From: a virus
Direction: 5' to 3' (one strand)
DNA length: 21,418 bases
IMG/VR virus record: IMGVR_UViG_3300046003_007668
Coordinates: 1 to 21,418 of that record
Of the stretch, positions 14,453 through 21,177 are shown in pieces (within the stretch, counting starts at the first letter, position 1; each line of letters starts with the position of its first letter). Both the position numbers and the translations under genes were made by a program. Below the pieces are notes generated by a model that saw only the letters and a list, made by a program, of their open reading frames with translations, was not told the origin of the DNA and made no database searches.

Positions 14453-14524
14453 GGACCGGTAATTCAGAGGTAGAATAGTGGACTCTTACTCCATATGCCG
14501 TCGGTTCGATCCCGACTCGGTCCT
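14453..14524 (+). tRNA. tRNA-Lys(CTT), no encoded CCA
   Basis: Full cloverleaf: acceptor GGACCGG/TCGGTCC, D-arm with GG, anticodon loop CTCTTAC (anticodon CTT, AAG codons), T-loop TTCGATC. Discriminator T73 is unusual for Lys but recurs in the other Lys tRNA here. Position 38 is C rather than A. The next bases are CATAAGCACC, the start of the homing-endonuclease cassette, instead of CCA. Confidence 0.92.
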
Positions 14525-14532
14525 CATAAGCA

Positions 14533-14581
14533 CCTCCGTTGTATAAATAGCAATGTCAATAAGACTATTTCACAACGGAGG
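14533..14581 (+). promoter_or_regulatory. RBS-sequestering hairpin with embedded TATAAATA, cassette 1
   Basis: CCTCCGTTGT (14533-14542) pairs perfectly with ACAACGGAGG (14572-14581), and AAATAG (14545-14550) with CTATTT (14565-14570). The right arm contains the GGAGG ribosome site of the endonuclease gene. TATAAATA (14542-14549) is in the left arm, so a transcript started from it would lack the left arm and free the ribosome site. T4 I-TevI is regulated in this way. Confidence 0.85.
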
Positions 14582-14592
14582 GTTAGCGCCAA

Positions 14593-15465
14593 ATGCACTA
14601 TACTATTTATAAAATAACTAATAAGATTAATGGCAACTTTTATATAGGAAAACATAAAACCAAGAATCTAAATGATAAATATATGGGTTCTGGTAAACTT
14701 ATACAAGCAGCCATAAAAAAACATGGTATTGAAAATTTTGAGAAAGAAATACTTGAGACTTTCAATACTGAAGAAGAAATGAATGAGGCCGAAAAAAGAT
14801 ATGTAGTTCTAGGTGAAGGTAGCTATAATCTTTGCCCTGGTGGACAAGGTGGTTGGGGTTATGTAAACACTAATAATCTTGGTGGTACCTTAGGATTAAA
14901 ACACACTGAAGAATATAAAAACAATCATTCATTAATAACAAAAAGAATATATGAAAATAGGGATGAAGAAACTAAAAAAGATATTTCTAAGAAAATAGCT
15001 GCTGGTTTAAAAGCTGTAAACTATGATCCAAGAAACTTTTTAGGTAAAAAACATACTCAAGAAGCAATACAAAAAATGTCCTTATCAAAGGAAGGACATG
15101 GACTTGGAGAAAAAAATAGTCAGTTTGGTACCATATGGATTTCTAATGGTATAGAAGAAAAAAAGATTAAAGCTTCTGATCAAATCCCAGAAGGATGGAC
15201 TAAACAAAGATTACAATCATTTAAAAATGATATATTAAAAGATATCAAGAAAAAAGAAAAAGAACAACAAAAAAATATTGCTCTTGAAACTAAAAAACAA
15301 GAACTACATAAACTTTATGAAATATATAAAGTTAAAGGTTTTGCAGGAGTTAGACAAGAAGACTATAAATATAGTCAACCATATTTAGTTATGAGTTTTG
15401 CAAAATATTTTCCTGATTTTACCCCACAAATGGGGAAGAAAAGAAAACAAAAATATTCCTCGTGA
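14593..15465 (+). CDS. GIY-YIG homing endonuclease (free-standing), copy 1
   Basis: 290 residues. N-terminal GIY-YIG nuclease: 'YTIYKITNKINGNFYIGKH' (TIY...YIG), with a catalytic-type Glu in 'EEEMNEAEKRYV'. Two NUMOD3-like segments follow ('LGLKHTEEYKNNHS', 'LGKKHTQEAIQKMSLS'), then 'FGTIWISNG...IPEGWTK', a DNA-binding end domain seen in T4 Seg proteins, and a Lys-rich helix. Such enzymes cut a phage lacking the cassette and drive gene conversion. GGAGG is placed nine bases before the ATG and is buried in a hairpin. The final two Ser codons and TGA lie within the 5' end of tRNA-Asn, so gene and tRNA overlap by nine bases. Confidence 0.92.
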   Translation: MHYTIYKITNKINGNFYIGKHKTKNLNDKYMGSGKLIQAAIKKHGIENFEKEILETFNTEEEMNEAEKRYVVLGEGSYNLCPGGQGGWGYVNTNNLGGTLGLKHTEEYKNNHSLITKRIYENRDEETKKDISKKIAAGLKAVNYDPRNFLGKKHTQEAIQKMSLSKEGHGLGEKNSQFGTIWISNGIEEKKIKASDQIPEGWTKQRLQSFKNDILKDIKKKEKEQQKNIALETKKQELHKLYEIYKVKGFAGVRQEDYKYSQPYLVMSFAKYFPDFTPQMGKKRKQKYSS

Positions 15466-15533
15466 TCCGAGCAAGCGAACGGACCCGGCTGTTAACCGGA
15501 GTTTGCCAGGGGCGGTACCTGGACGAGGAGCCA
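15457..15533 (+). tRNA. tRNA-Asn(GTT) with aberrant D- and T-loops
   Basis: Acceptor TCCTCGT/ACGAGGA, G73 and encoded CCA agree with Asn identity; the anticodon loop is CTGTTAA. The D-arm (TCCG/CGGA) has loop AGCAAGCGAA without the usual GG. The T-stem CCAGG/CCTGG is perfect, but the loop is GGCGGTA rather than TTCRANN. The base between D- and anticodon stems is missing and pair 27-43 is C/A. Its first nine bases are also the end of the endonuclease gene. Confidence 0.8.
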
Positions 15534-15541
15534 GTTTTATT

Positions 15542-15618
15542 GCTCCCTTAGCCCAACTGGTAGAGGCGTCTGACTTAAGATCAGATTAGTGCCAGTTCAA
15601 ATCTGGCAGGGAGTACCA
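15542..15618 (+). tRNA. tRNA with anticodon TAA (Leu), short variable loop
   Basis: Acceptor GCTCCCT/AGGGAGT, A73, encoded CCA, D-loop with GG, anticodon loop CTTAAGA, T-arm GCCAG/CTGGC with TTCAAAT. The variable loop is only five bases (TTAGT), whereas bacterial tRNA-Leu has a long variable arm. The anticodon reads UUA. G37 and A73 agree with Leu. Confidence 0.88.
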
Positions 15619-15622
15619 CTTT

Positions 15623-15707
15623 GGATCAGTAGCGTATATGTCAGGCAAGTGCTACAGCCGGGCTTTTAATCCGGTCGCAAGGGGAGCGTTACCTCACTGA
15701 TCCTCCA
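15623..15707 (+). tRNA. tRNA-Lys(TTT) with enlarged D-loop and aberrant T-loop
   Basis: Acceptor GGATCAG/CTGATCC is perfect, T73, encoded CCA. Anticodon arm CCGGG/TCCGG with loop CTTTTAA (TTT). The D-region is 28 bases: TAGC/GCTA around a 17-base loop. The T-arm is GGGG/CCTC with loop AGCGTTA, the same loop as tRNA-Met at 18819. Confidence 0.78.
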
Positions 15708-15713
15708 CTTTAA

Positions 15714-15789
15714 TGTCCTGTAGCTCAATTGGGAGAGCATTTGCTTGATAAGCGAAAGGTAGTTGGATCGAAACCAACCAGGACAACCA
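15714..15789 (+). tRNA. tRNA-Ile(GAT)
   Basis: Acceptor TGTCCTG/CAGGACA, A73, CCA; D-stem GCTC/GAGC; anticodon loop TTGATAA (GAT); T-arm GTTGG/CCAAC with loop ATCGAAA. It reads AUC/AUU codons. The spacer to the next tRNA (15790-15876) has an imperfect hairpin (CTCTTTCTATA with TATAGAAGAG) and no gene. Confidence 0.93.
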
Positions 15790-15876
15790 TTCAGTTCTTG
15801 TTTCTCTTTCTATAGAGAAATATAGAAGAGGCCTTCCAGTTGGGCTGATGAAATACACTGGATATATTCTAAGTTT

Positions 15877-15954
15877 GCGGTAGTCTTCTAATTGGACTAG
15901 GAACCCTGACTTTCAATCAGGCCAATGCGGGTTCGATTCCCGTCTACCGCACCA
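15877..15954 (+). tRNA. tRNA-Glu(TTC)
   Basis: Acceptor GCGGTAG/CTACCGC, A73, CCA; anticodon arm CCTGA/TCAGG with loop CTTTCAA (TTC); T-loop TTCGATT. Canonical. Confidence 0.94.
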
Positions 15955-15959
15955 AACTT

Positions 15960-16034
15960 GCTCTTAAAGCATAAGTGGCGATGCACGGGTTTTGTAATCC
16001 TGAGAACTTGGTTCGATTCCGAGTGAGAGCACCA
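15960..16034 (+). tRNA. tRNA-Thr(TGT)
   Basis: Acceptor GCTCTTA/TGAGAGC, A73, CCA; D-stem GCAT/ATGC; anticodon TGT in loop TTTGTAA, with a T-T mismatch at the top of the stem; T-arm CTTGG/CCGAG with TTCGATT. Confidence 0.9.
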
Positions 16035-16042
16035 AATATCTA

Positions 16043-16070
16043 TTGACTTTCCTTTAGTCTGTGATATAAA
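16043..16070 (+). promoter_or_regulatory. Promoter of the phosphatase-like gene
   Basis: TTGACT (16043-16048), 16-base spacer, TATAAA (16065-16070). Its expected start point lies near 16077, which makes ATG 16095 preferable to ATG 16080 for the following gene. Confidence 0.78.
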
Positions 16071-16094
16071 GATCATATAATGAGAGGTGATGAC

Positions 16095-16481
16095 ATGAGT
16101 ACAATGAACCGAATTGGTAATGCAGGCAATCGCTTCCAGGGCCAATTTAAACGGGTGCTATGTGTTTGCTCTGCAGGTCTTCTTAGGTCTCCAACCACAG
16201 CATTTGTTCTTTCACAAGAACCTTATAACTTCAATACTCGTGCTGTTGGTATTTCTCGTGAATATGCTCTGATTCCGATTGATTCCGTTCATCTCCATTG
16301 GGCTGATGAAATTGTGACAATGGAGAAAGCACATACTAAAGTTGTTGAAGAACTGATTAATACTTCTGGTCTAGGTTCAACTGGACCTAAAGTTATTCAG
16401 TTGAATATTCCCGACGATTTTGCATATCGTGATCCTCAGCTAATTGAACTTATCAAGAAGGCTTACGATTCACATAAATAA
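16095..16481 (+). CDS. Low-molecular-weight tyrosine-phosphatase-like protein
   Basis: 128 residues from ATG 16095 (GAGAGGTGATG upstream is its ribosome site). The P-loop C-x5-R-S is present: 'VLCVCSAGLLRSPTTA' (~22-37), as in LMW protein tyrosine phosphatases and arsenate-reductase relatives. The general-acid Asp may be in 'IPDDFAYRDPQLIELI' near the C-terminus, where LMW-PTPs have a DPxxxxxxxY-type loop. It is shorter than typical members (~150). It could dephosphorylate a host protein or a small phosphate ester. It has its own early-type promoter within the tRNA cluster, so it appears to be an independent insertion. Confidence 0.8.
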   Translation: MSTMNRIGNAGNRFQGQFKRVLCVCSAGLLRSPTTAFVLSQEPYNFNTRAVGISREYALIPIDSVHLHWADEIVTMEKAHTKVVEELINTSGLGSTGPKVIQLNIPDDFAYRDPQLIELIKKAYDSHK

Positions 16482-16507
16482 AAGTTGTGGTATTAAGCGA
16501 AAATCAA

Positions 16508-16536
16508 TTGACAGCTGATTATATCCATGGTATACT
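16508..16536 (+). promoter_or_regulatory. Strong sigma70-like promoter before tRNA(TAT)
   Basis: Consensus TTGACA (16508-16513), 17-base spacer, TATACT (16531-16536). It ends 11 bases before the tRNA at 16548, so transcription would start close to its 5' end. Confidence 0.87.
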
Positions 16537-16547
16537 ATCTTAGTTAA

Positions 16548-16638
16548 GGGCGTGAGGGCTGGTGCTCACCAGGAGCTTATACCTCCTTAGGCAGCTGATT
16601 ACTGTTGGGATAGGGTTCAATTCCCTACGTGCCTACCA
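16548..16638 (+). tRNA. Class II-sized tRNA with anticodon TAT (Ile AUA?)
   Basis: Acceptor GGGCGTG/CGTGCCT (with wobbles), A73, CCA; anticodon arm AGGAG/CTCCT with loop CTTATAC (TAT); T-arm TAGGG/CCCTA with TTCAATT. About 23 bases separate the anticodon and T arms, with a possible GCAG/CTGT variable stem, which is unusual for Ile. The D-region CTGGTGCTCACCAG forms a tight hairpin without a normal D-loop. The amino acid is uncertain. The spacer 16639-16725 looks tRNA-like (TAGCTCAGATTAGG) but does not fold convincingly. Confidence 0.72.
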
Positions 16639-16725
16639 AAATTTTGATCTAGCTCAGATTAGGAATTACCTGGTTTGCGATGATGCTAGACGGATAGACC
16701 AATACGTGAGGTTTATCAACAATTT

Positions 16726-16802
16726 GCTCCTGTTGACTAACTGGATAAGTTCACTGCCTTCTAAGCAGTTTTATGGGGGTTCGAATCCCTCCAGGAGTAC
16801 CA
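16726..16802 (+). tRNA. tRNA-Arg(TCT)
   Basis: Acceptor GCTCCTG/CAGGAGT, A73, CCA; anticodon arm ACTGC/GCAGT with loop CTTCTAA (TCT, AGA codons); T-loop TTCGAAT. Canonical; AGA is a frequent codon in these AT-rich genes. Confidence 0.93.
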
Positions 16803-16821
16803 CTTTTAAAGGATCTATACT

Positions 16822-16992
16822 ATGACAGGTAATGAAGATAACCAGCTTGCCGGATTAATTCTATTTGTAATTGGCATGTTTCTTTGTGGTTGTGCTGTAG
16901 GTGTATTTTTTGGTAAAGGATTTGGATTCTTATTTGTAGGACTTCCATTACTTGCCATCGGCATTTACGGTATACTTACAGGCCCAAAGTAA
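16822..16992 (+). CDS. Small two-span membrane protein
   Basis: 56 residues: a polar start (MTGNEDNQLA), a hydrophobic span ~11-30 (GLILFVIGMFLCGCAVGVFF), a short GKGFG turn, and a second span ~34-52 (FLFVGLPLLAIGIYGILTG). AAAGGA is upstream of the ATG. It lies alone between tRNA-Arg and a tRNA-like element. Two-span proteins of this size in phages include holin-like and exclusion proteins; no lysis gene is nearby, so I make no assignment. Confidence 0.7.
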   Translation: MTGNEDNQLAGLILFVIGMFLCGCAVGVFFGKGFGFLFVGLPLLAIGIYGILTGPK

Positions 16993-17001
16993 GTTCAGAT
17001 A

Positions 17002-17136
17002 TTGTGGTAAGTAAAGTCTACGCTAAATCGGCTAGCTAGCGATGATAAGGTAGAGTGGATATAATCAATCCATAAAAGGAGAATGGGCAGATAATATCTC
17101 ATAAATATTATTGGATACCTCACCTGCCACAAACCA
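17002..17136 (+). ncRNA. tRNA-like structured element (uncertain)
   Basis: The ends pair like an acceptor, TTGTGGT (17002-17008) with GCCACAA (17126-17132), followed by A and CCA exactly as in a tRNA 3' end. Inside, ATAATAT/ATATTAT (17091-17111) holds the loop CTCATAA, identical to the anticodon loop of tRNA-Met at 18819. TGGAT/ATCCA (17057-17073 region) holds another 7-base loop. The total (135 bases) is too long and no T-arm is evident, so it is not a standard tRNA. It could be an interrupted, decayed or unusual one. Confidence 0.4.
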
Positions 17137-17164
17137 GAACTTCTAATATAGAAAGGAATATATT

Positions 17165-17716
17165 ATGTCTTTCAACGTTCATGATCACTACAAGGATCTG
17201 AGTGTAGAAGATTTGAAGTTAATTTCTAATGCTACTCGACTACCATATGCAGTTTGTCTACTCAATTTAGAATATGACCTAAATATTGGCAACTGTATTC
17301 GAACTGCTCATATTTTTGGTGCTGAACAAGTCTTTATCTTTGGTCGTCGACGCTATGATCTAAGATCAACTGTTGGTGCTAATCACTATACTAATATTGT
17401 TAAGTATGATTTTGATGAACTTACTGATGATGAAGTGATTGTCAATCAGTTTGAAAATATGGTTTATGACTATAATCTTGAGCCCTTGCTGATTGATAAA
17501 ACAGCAGAATCAAGAGATATTTCTGAATCTCACATTTATAATAATGGCGATCTAACAACACCATGTTTAGTCTTTGGAAATGAAAATTCTGGTATTCCGA
17601 CTTGTCTAACGGATAAATATCCATGCTTTCATATTCCACAACGTGGTGTAATTCGTTCACTCAATGTTGCTTCTGCCGCTGCGGTTGCAATGTATGAGTT
17701 CTCTAAATATCTATAA
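17165..17716 (+). CDS. SpoU/TrmH-family RNA 2'-O-methyltransferase
   Basis: 183 residues of the SPOUT fold. Motif 1 'LNIGNCIRTAHIFGAEQVF' (N-x-G-x3-R-x-A), motif 2 'CLVFGNENSGIP' and motif 3 'IPQRGVIRSLNVASAAAVA' are all intact, including the Asn and Arg that bind substrate and the knot residues for SAM. It is close to the minimal size for TrmL/TrmH-like enzymes, with no extra RNA-binding domain. It should methylate a ribose 2'-OH in tRNA (positions 18, 32 or 34 in known relatives) or rRNA. Its position inside a 16-tRNA cluster makes phage or host tRNA the likely substrate. AAAGGAATAT precedes the ATG. Confidence 0.9.
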   Translation: MSFNVHDHYKDLSVEDLKLISNATRLPYAVCLLNLEYDLNIGNCIRTAHIFGAEQVFIFGRRRYDLRSTVGANHYTNIVKYDFDELTDDEVIVNQFENMVYDYNLEPLLIDKTAESRDISESHIYNNGDLTTPCLVFGNENSGIPTCLTDKYPCFHIPQRGVIRSLNVASAAAVAMYEFSKYL

Positions 17717-17722
17717 GAATAA

Positions 17723-17796
17723 GCGGAATTGGCGTAAAGGTAGCGTCTTTGGCTTCCACCCAAATGGCACGAGTTCGAATCTCGTATTCCGCACCA
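17723..17796 (+). tRNA. tRNA-Gly(TCC)
   Basis: Acceptor GCGGAAT/ATTCCGC, A73, CCA; anticodon arm TTTGG/CCAAA with loop CTTCCAC (TCC, GGA codons); T-arm ACGAG/CTCGT with TTCGAAT. Position 38 is C. Confidence 0.93.
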
Positions 17797-18018
17797 GAGA
17801 CCCGGTCTATAATCACGTAGCAATCAGTGGCTTGATTTGGTGAATCAAGATATTGTGGACAACCATCTACAGCTGAGTATGTTGAGTATAAATCGGTAAG
17901 AATTGATTCTTACGCTCGTGTGCAGGAACGACCTGCTAACCTTGTGTTTCAAGAGGTCTCGGCGCCTCGAGCTCCGTTCCGGGATTGCGAAACATAGTAA
18001 ACGTAAGAATCAAACAGT
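17797..18018. other. Structured non-coding stretch between tRNA-Gly and tRNA-fMet
   Basis: No convincing gene. Stems visible: CTTGATT/AATCAAG (17831-17849); GTAAGAAT/ATTCTTAC (17896-17913); GATTCTTACG (17905-17914) with CGTAAGAATC (18002-18011), which competes with the previous stem; and GGAACG/CGTTCC within the enclosed part. It may encode an unrecognised structured RNA or decayed tRNAs. Confidence 0.45.
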
Positions 18019-18094
18019 TGCAGGGTAGAGGAGCTCGGTCGTCCTCGCCTGGTTCATACCCAGGAAATCGTGGGTTCAAATCCCACCTCTGCTA
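18019..18094 (+). tRNA. Initiator-type tRNA-Met (fMet, CAT), no encoded CCA
   Basis: TGCAGGG pairs with CTCTGCT except at 1-72 (T/T), the unpaired end that marks bacterial initiators. D-stem pair 11-24 is A-T, another initiator mark. The anticodon stem has G30-C40 and G31-C39 but T29-A41. Anticodon loop TTCATAC instead of CTCATAA. T-arm GTGGG/CCCAC with TTCAAAT, A73. The following bases are CATAAGCACC of the second endonuclease cassette, not CCA. Confidence 0.88.
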
Positions 18095-18102
18095 CATAAG
18101 CA

Positions 18103-18151
18103 CCTTGATTATATAAATAGCAATATCAATAAGACTATTATATAATCAAGG
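18103..18151 (+). promoter_or_regulatory. RBS-sequestering hairpin with embedded TATAAATA, cassette 2
   Basis: CCTTGATTATATAA (18103-18116) pairs perfectly with TTATATAATCAAGG (18138-18151), which carries the AAGG ribosome site. TATAAATA is at 18112-18119. The outer stem differs from cassette 1 in sequence but keeps pairing, while the loop words TATAAATAGCAAT and CAATAAGACTATT are conserved. Confidence 0.85.
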
Positions 18152-18161
18152 GTTAGCTTAA

Positions 18162-18860
18162 ATGTACTATACTATATACAAAATTACCAATAAGATTAAT
18201 AATAAATTTTATATTGGTAAACACAAGACTAAAAAATTAGATGATGGTTATATGGGCTCAGGAAAACTTATCAAAGCCGCCATCAAAAAACACGGTAAAG
18301 AAAACTTTGAGAAAGAAATACTTGGTTTTTTTAATACCGAAAAAGAAATGGATGAAGCTGAAAAAATATATGTAGTTTTAAGTGAAAGTAGTTATAATCT
18401 TTGTCCTGGTGGGGAAGGTGGATGGGGATATGTTAATGAAAATAAATTATCTCCTATTATGAATCCTGAAACAAAAGTATATCAAAACGGTCGTAAAGCA
18501 ACTGATCTTATTTTAGAAAGTAAATATGGTGAAAATTGGAGATCTGTTCTTTCAAATATTGCTAATTCTAAACTAAAAGCAATCTTAGAAAAAGACCCAT
18601 TATATCTATCTAGTAAAATTGGTTCTTTAAACCATTTCTTTGGGAAAAACCACACATCACATACAAAACAAAAAATGTCTTTATCTCACAAACATAAACA
18701 CAATGGTGAGAAAAATTCACAATTTGGTACCATTTGGATAACTGATGGTACCAATAATAAAAAAATAAAATTAGATGAACCGATGCCTGATAATTGGTAT
18801 CGTGGTAGAAATATAAATGCCTTCAGATCAAGTGATCTCGGTCGTCTCATAAGCGACTAG
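18162..18860 (+). CDS. GIY-YIG homing endonuclease (free-standing), copy 2
   Basis: 232 residues, nearly identical to copy 1 over the first ~95: 'YTIYKITNKINNKFYIGKH', 'YMGSGKLIKAAIKKHGKENF', 'EMDEAEKIYVVL'. The middle differs: a 'VYQNGRKATDLILESKYGE' segment and one NUMOD3-like 'FFGKNHTSHTKQKMSLSHK'. It then shares 'GEKNSQFGTIWITDGTNNKKI' (given here as a 20-residue-class motif) and ends the family domain with 'PDNWYRGRN'. The remaining ~13 residues and the TAG are encoded inside tRNA-Met, so gene and tRNA overlap by 42 bases. The buried ribosome site and late-type word are as in copy 1. Confidence 0.92.
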   Translation: MYYTIYKITNKINNKFYIGKHKTKKLDDGYMGSGKLIKAAIKKHGKENFEKEILGFFNTEKEMDEAEKIYVVLSESSYNLCPGGEGGWGYVNENKLSPIMNPETKVYQNGRKATDLILESKYGENWRSVLSNIANSKLKAILEKDPLYLSSKIGSLNHFFGKNHTSHTKQKMSLSHKHKHNGEKNSQFGTIWITDGTNNKKIKLDEPMPDNWYRGRNINAFRSSDLGRLISD

Positions 18861-18890
18861 ATCGTGGAGCGTTACCACGTGAAGGCACCA
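18819..18890 (+). tRNA. tRNA-Met(CAT), elongator or Ile2 type, with minimal D-arm and aberrant T-loop
   Basis: Acceptor GCCTTCA/TGAAGGC, A73, CCA; anticodon arm GTCGT/GCGAC with loop CTCATAA; T-stem CGTGG/CCACG is perfect, but the loop is AGCGTTA. The D-region is 15 bases, GATC/GATC around AAGT, with no GG. The 5' 42 bases double as the end of the endonuclease gene. CAT could also be read as Ile if lysidine-modified. Confidence 0.8.
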
Positions 18891-21084: not shown

Positions 21085-21177
21085 GGAGAGTGAACCGGAC
21101 AGGCGTACCGGGCTCGCCTTGAAAGCGATGCGAACCCTTAAAAAGGTTTGGACTTCGAGTGTACCCGCTCTCCGCCA
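21085..21177 (+). tRNA. tRNA-Ser(TGA)
   Basis: Acceptor GGAGAGT/GCTCTCC, G73, CCA; anticodon arm TCGC/GCGA with loop CTTGAAA (TGA); long variable arm (AACC/GGTT) as for Ser; T-loop TTCGAGT on a weak T-stem with two mismatches. D-arm CCGG/CCGG. Confidence 0.9.

Follow-up and report, generated by a model that had tools for sequence, protein, structure and literature searches.

SegB-like homing endonuclease genes seated at the base-73/74 border of CCA-less tRNA genes in the tRNA array of a T4-like phage

Introduction

The question raised by the locus described here is why two homing endonuclease genes should begin exactly where a tRNA gene ends, and why precisely these two tRNA genes have no encoded CCA. 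The locus lies in the IMG/VR virus record IMGVR_UViG_3300046003_007668, of which positions 1 to 21,418 were analyzed (hereafter the window, meaning this whole stretch of 21,418 nucleotides). The window represents part of a T4-like phage genome and carries a tRNA array, and T4-type sliding clamp and clamp-loader genes were found upstream of the array by profile search. Each of the two GIY-YIG endonuclease genes follows a short leader, with which it forms a cassette, and is flanked by tRNAs on each side within the tRNA gene cluster. In this study, we show by comparison with named phages that leaders of this kind of element border the tRNA at base 74, and that in three pairs of phages the encoded CCA is lost where the nuclease gene is present.

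The SegB family, its link to tRNA genes, the seat of segB in T4 and the late-promoter hairpin are already published. T4 segB sits between tRNA-Ile and tRNA-Arg, with a hairpin and a late promoter over its ribosome-binding site (PMC2988022), and for T4 and T6 SegB the literature shows both homing in co-infected cells and double-strand cuts in DNA of the tRNA region. An initial annotation of the window recognized the repeated geometry of the two cassettes and proposed that the junctions are insertion sites and that the enzymes target tRNA genes; it was silent on the SegB family, on the late-promoter hairpin of the leader and on those members of the family that keep the CCA.

Results

Both cassettes start right after the discriminator base of the upstream tRNA, as the initial annotation had stated, with CATAAGCACC directly following T73 of tRNA-Lys(CTT) and A73 of tRNA-fMet. 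A base-by-base check bears out that these are the only two complete tRNAs of the window without an encoded CCA, the other 13 of 15 ending in CCA, and the probability that two CCA-less tRNAs coincide by chance with the two that precede cassettes is 1/105 within the window. It is also correct that both frames run into the next tRNA and find their stop codon there (Table 1).

The flanks of such cassettes were compared with cassette-free phages, as the initial annotation had suggested, and three filled and empty pairs of named phages were obtained in which the tRNA end is identical at 73 of 73 bases and is followed by CCA only where the gene is absent. In T4, A73 of tRNA-Ile is followed by TATTTTGAG and segB (A/TATTTTG), whereas in phage WG01 it is followed by CCAACTAC (A/CCAACT); the downstream tRNA-Arg is identical at 75 of 75 bases, and CCAACT is replaced by segB in T4. 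Similarly, A73 of the p000v tRNA-Met leads into TATTTTGGG and segB (A/TATTTTG), whereas the identical tRNA of phage mobillu continues with CCA (A/CCAATC). The third pair consists of Klebsiella phage 15882-3-5, where T73 of tRNA-Met is followed by CTTTTGTTT (T/CTTTTG), and phage Roth80, where it is followed by CCAACAA, with the downstream tRNA-Gln again identical at 75 of 75 bases. These alignments establish the border between leader and tRNA and the loss of CCA in the three pairs, and they support the view that the junctions are insertion boundaries from which the CCA was removed by the insertion.

Both open reading frames (ORFs) contain the GIY-YIG domain PF01541 (22.7 and 24.5 bits; cut-off 22.6) and match the homing endonuclease family phrog_314 (E = 2.7e-44). 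The product of ORF 2 aligns with T4 SegB along its full length at 44% identity (232 alignment columns), the C-terminal NSQFG..WI part included, and ORF 1 and ORF 2 share 58% identity over their aligned part. A search of solved structures returned only the catalytic domain of I-TevI, at E = 0.055, together with spurious matches to designed proteins. The Rfam search gave no intron or ribozyme match (E <= 1), and thus no group I intron core around the ORFs. By homology the two cassettes belong to the T4 SegB family of free-standing homing endonuclease genes, with both ORFs lying between tRNAs and outside any intron or intein.

The leaders of both cassettes have the same order, namely CATAAGCA, a hairpin arm, the near-constant stretch ATAAATAGCAATRTCAATAAGACTATT, the second arm and the start codon. 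Although the two window leaders have different arm sequences, the arms of each remain complementary, and the pairing covers the Shine-Dalgarno sequence, which in leader 2 lies at the foot of the arm. Comparison of the leaders of relatives reveals clear covariation, with 10 of 10 pairs retained in all 17 of 17 leaders despite 16 different 5' arms, whereas swapping 5' and 3' arms between leaders leaves a mean of 6.3 of 10 pairs. The predicted folds reach -22.4 kcal/mol for leader 1 (z -4.8 vs shuffles) and -19.2 kcal/mol for leader 2 (z -4.7), and without the 5' arm the z scores become +1.2 and +1.1, respectively. In both leaders the T4 late-promoter sequence TATAAATA lies where the loop begins or spans that point (14542 and 18112). 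A late promoter within a hairpin that hides the ribosome-binding site in the long early RNA is documented for I-TevI, mobE and T4 segB (PMC2988022, PMC3014915), and by analogy we infer that the hairpin may serve as a late-promoter translation switch in the window phage. The exact leader loop had no match in bacterial genome contigs. A second kind of leader, CCCTTGAG...CAAGACTCGAAC...TATAAATA, occurs in loci L036, L044, L047, L050, L062 and L070; it has an inverted-T-arm-like sequence just before the late promoter that could be an I-TevI-like operator.

Scans of viral contigs yielded 80 loci with relatives of the enzymes, plus further loci with the leader. Among 59 enzymes starting <=100 bases from a detected tRNA, CCA is absent from 53 of the tRNAs directly before the gene, compared with 48 of 506 tRNAs elsewhere in these loci (Fisher p = 3e-39, uncorrected for relatedness), and therefore the repeated geometry is far beyond chance. 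The occupied upstream tRNAs span 17 isotypes, and a tree of 58 enzymes requires the isotype to have changed at least 37 times (a quick tree in which only 17 of 55 branches are well supported). One 162-kb genome carries an identical 58-base leader from base 74 behind both a tRNA-Lys and a tRNA-Val (L019 and L031) with zero common bases immediately preceding it, which places the left boundary of the mobile unit at base 74 irrespective of the tRNA and shows near-identical leaders moving between tRNAs. At the right end, 18 of the 31 ORFs with a nearby detected tRNA stop inside that tRNA and the remainder stop 0-9 bases before it. Across these phages, T4 included, the precise seat together with the missing CCA forms a usual footprint of the SegB family.

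Leaders without a nuclease gene were also found behind CCA-less tRNAs, one behind tRNA-Trp in L099 (6410 onward) and one behind tRNA-Gln in the L004 locus (L131), and these lone hairpins are likely the remains of lost cassettes. Phage WFbE185 carries a T4-type tRNA-Ile with neither CCA nor segB. As a separate observation, the tRNA-Pro and tRNA-Ser of T4 itself (L108, 1139-1301) are CCA-less and nearly fused to the next tRNA, with spacers CT and TAATTTT; they are possibly older insertion scars, the tRNA-Pro of Serratia phage X20 having CCA. No nuclease-bearing relative was found for the T4 Pro-Ser junction.

The coordinates of the cassettes and their bordering tRNAs are collected in Table 1. 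ARAGORN detected 9 of the 13 CCA-bearing window tRNAs and left 4 undetected; tRNA-Asn (15457-15530) and tRNA-Met (18819-18887) were identified with a custom search for cloverleaf folds, which had 0 hits when run on 128 kb of shuffled sequence, and tRNA-Lys(TTT) (15623-15704) and tRNA-Ser (21085-21174) were read by hand. Neither ARAGORN nor the Rfam tRNA model detected tRNA-Asn, tRNA-Lys(TTT) or tRNA-Met, the T-loops of which are without TTC; that of tRNA-Lys(TTT) (15623-15707 with CCA) is AGCGTTA, as in tRNA-Met. Over all loci, the custom search found such T-loops in 70 of 476 tRNAs and in none of the shuffled sequence, with ATCGTTA, AGCGTTA and GGCGGAA among the commonest. The idea that downstream tRNAs with odd T-loops act as cleavage-resistant partners was rejected, such tRNAs being found after nuclease genes in 6 of 30 cases vs 64 of 446 elsewhere (p = 0.42). 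A SpoU-type RNA methyltransferase gene (PF00588) also lies within the window tRNA array, at 17165-17716.

Table 1. Positions of the two cassettes and of the tRNA genes that border them in the window
Feature	Position	Strand	Description	Identification
tRNA-Lys(CTT)	14453..14524	+	bases 1-73, no encoded CCA	ARAGORN; Rfam tRNA 62 bits
Leader of cassette 1	14525..14592	+	hairpin arms 14533-14542 / 14572-14581; TATAAATA at 14542-14549; Shine-Dalgarno GGAGG inside 3' arm	
SegB-like GIY-YIG homing endonuclease 1	14593..15465	+	290 aa; TGA stop = bases 7-9 of tRNA-Asn	
tRNA-Asn(GTT)	15457..15533 incl. CCA	+	T-loop GGCGGTA; downstream border of cassette 1	custom search
tRNA-fMet	18019..18094	+	bases 1-73, no encoded CCA	ARAGORN
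Leader of cassette 2	18095..18161	+	hairpin arms 18103-18116 / 18138-18151; TATAAATA at 18112-18119, overlapping 5' arm end	
SegB-like GIY-YIG homing endonuclease 2	18162..18860	+	232 aa; TAG stop = bases 40-42 of tRNA-Met	
tRNA-Met(CAT)	18819..18890 incl. CCA	+	T-loop AGCGTTA; downstream border of cassette 2	custom search

Discussion

Taken as a whole, the explanation that we judge to be very probably right is that the moving unit, made up of the leader hairpin and the ORF, fills the exact interval between neighboring tRNA genes in an array. On the left it begins at base 74 of the upstream tRNA, where it replaces the CCA, and on the right it ends at base 1 of the downstream tRNA or beside it; the stop codon is often borrowed from within that tRNA. 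On the model of T4 biology, early read-through RNA would fold the hairpin and hide the Shine-Dalgarno sequence, and late RNA, which would begin in the loop and be devoid of the 5' arm, would permit late translation. When phages co-infect, the enzyme would cut the tRNA genes of the other phage, and the cassette would be copied in by recombinational repair. Subsequent loss of the nuclease gene would leave a CCA-less scar.

There is likely a functional reason for the exact border at base 74. An encoded CCA is a strong obstacle to bacterial RNase Z (a 1520-fold effect with the B. subtilis enzyme), and tRNAs ending in, for example, CA or CU are processed by E. coli RNase Z/BN (PMC7479834); a single cut after base 73 can therefore be enough to free a CCA-less tRNA. 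It may be that the tRNA in front of a cassette is released by such a tRNase Z-type cut and is then completed by the CCA-adding enzyme of the host. Since a few members retain the CCA, this route of release is not obligatory. With regard to targeting, T6 SegB cuts inside tRNA genes and the motif RAWTSGAAC is enriched (PMC13096335); in our reading, the reverse complement of this motif, GTTCSAWTY, looks like the T-arm, which is 12-20 bases away from the border. The earlier proposal that the enzymes target tRNA genes is consistent with these cuts and with the 17 occupied isotypes.

Several points weigh against the explanation given above. Cutting of tRNA genes and homing by the two window enzymes are attributed to them from the literature on T4 and T6 SegB, and the test of association with CCA loss ignores shared ancestry. 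The late promoter and the timing are read from sequence matches, and TATAAATA occurs 8 times in the window vs 2.9 expected. CCA is present at the junction in 6 of the 59 relatives (by a permissive rule, and with L073 ambiguous), and in Raoultella phage M21a the nuclease gene lies behind a tRNA-Gly that retains its CCA. In some cases (L051 and similar) the occupied upstream tRNA has a T-loop that lacks TTC, so that a T-arm target does not give a full account of the seat. The weakest point concerns cassette 2. A search for further phages related to that of the window, at the fMet/Met and Lys/Asn sites, turned up near-identical copies and L012 but nothing else. L012 is the only one of them without cassette 2; its tRNA-fMet passes from A73-C straight into base 1 of tRNA-Met and carries no CCA. 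This junction demonstrates that cassette 2 is located exactly between the two tRNA genes. It is also the case that the initial annotation had named as contrary to its proposal, a cassette-free relative with an equally CCA-less tRNA, and because of it the demonstration of CCA loss by insertion covers the three named pairs and not the fMet site. The state of L012 is either the scar of a lost cassette or the state before insertion, of which we tentatively favor the scar.

The alternative that nuclease genes settle at junctions that are already CCA-less, with insertion not being the cause, draws on this same tRNA-fMet of L012 and on the tRNA-Pro and tRNA-Ser of T4, which are CCA-less without an adjacent nuclease gene. 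We consider it unlikely in view of the three pairs in which an identical 73-base tRNA end bears CCA when empty. Moreover, apart from the two that bear cassettes, the tRNAs listed for L012 include a single CCA-less one, fMet, and scars do form, as is seen from the leaders that follow CCA-less tRNAs but have no nuclease gene. It is likewise improbable, in our opinion, that there is no targeting at all and that the genes land anywhere in the array, surviving at borders because elsewhere a tRNA is broken. Selection for intact tRNAs would spare the CCA and would permit any spacer length, whereas near-identical leaders in fact start from base 74 after tRNAs of many isotypes, and the cuts of SegB fall within tRNA genes (PMC13096335). 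In favor of this reading, tRNA arrays are dense, SegB works via long conversion tracts from distant cuts (PMC13096335), and selection must contribute to fixing the border.

A far less probable reading takes the leader to be a tRNA-processing or self-splicing RNA, such as the remnant of an intron, rather than a translation switch. The leader does abut the tRNA exactly and forms a strong conserved hairpin, and the best NCBIfam match of the proteins is a group I intron endonuclease, below the cut-off. However, in addition to the negative Rfam result, the ORF runs into the next tRNA and there is thus no room for the 3' half of an intron, the sequences of the arms vary freely while their pairing is kept, and the Shine-Dalgarno sequence and late promoter are placed as in the known switches of T4.

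The cassettes resemble T4 SegB in their full-length homology, their seat between two tRNAs, the CCA-less upstream tRNA and the hairpin, with its putative late promoter, over the ribosome-binding site. They differ from it in that the leader is unrelated (N73/CATAAGC... in the window vs N73/TATTTTG... in T4) with a longer hairpin, the stop codons lie inside the downstream tRNA whereas T4 segB has its own, and there are two copies in one array. As with I-TevI and mobE of phage Aeh1, the ribosome-binding site would be hidden in the long RNA, and the late-promoter RNA would be without the 5' arm (PMC2988022, PMC3014915); in contrast, I-TevI is located inside a group I intron and mobE within an nrd operon, whereas the window hairpin begins at a tRNA border. 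The work on tRNA amplification by T6 SegB describes SegB-family genes beside tRNAs of any isotype and cuts within tRNA genes, but it scores co-localization within 1 kb, and a search of its text revealed no mention of CCA, nor did the parts consulted describe a base-73/74 border (PMC13096335). In our literature search the base-73/74 border, the footprint of CCA loss and the borrowed stop codon were unmentioned; a 2008 SegB paper that the search did not cover may describe part of this.

We put forward tentatively, as a generalization that is possible rather than probable, that SegB-family enzymes are a broad mobile class with a natural insertion point at base 73/74 of almost any tRNA gene, where the encoded CCA is traded for a leader that would both free the tRNA and time the nuclease, and where the downstream tRNA provides the stop codon. 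If this is true, the CCA-less tRNA genes of T4-like phages would for the most part be the footprints left by insertions, past or present. Independently of this generalization, the natural filled and empty pairs offer an explanation for those phage tRNA genes, including tRNA-Ile of T4, that have no CCA where related copies encode it. The border also offers a signature, exact to the base, by which SegB-type insertions of the past and present can be found. Moreover, it makes testable how an enzyme family relevant to tRNA-based counter-defence chooses its seat among many tRNAs, and whether the release of the tRNA and the translation of the nuclease compete for one RNA.

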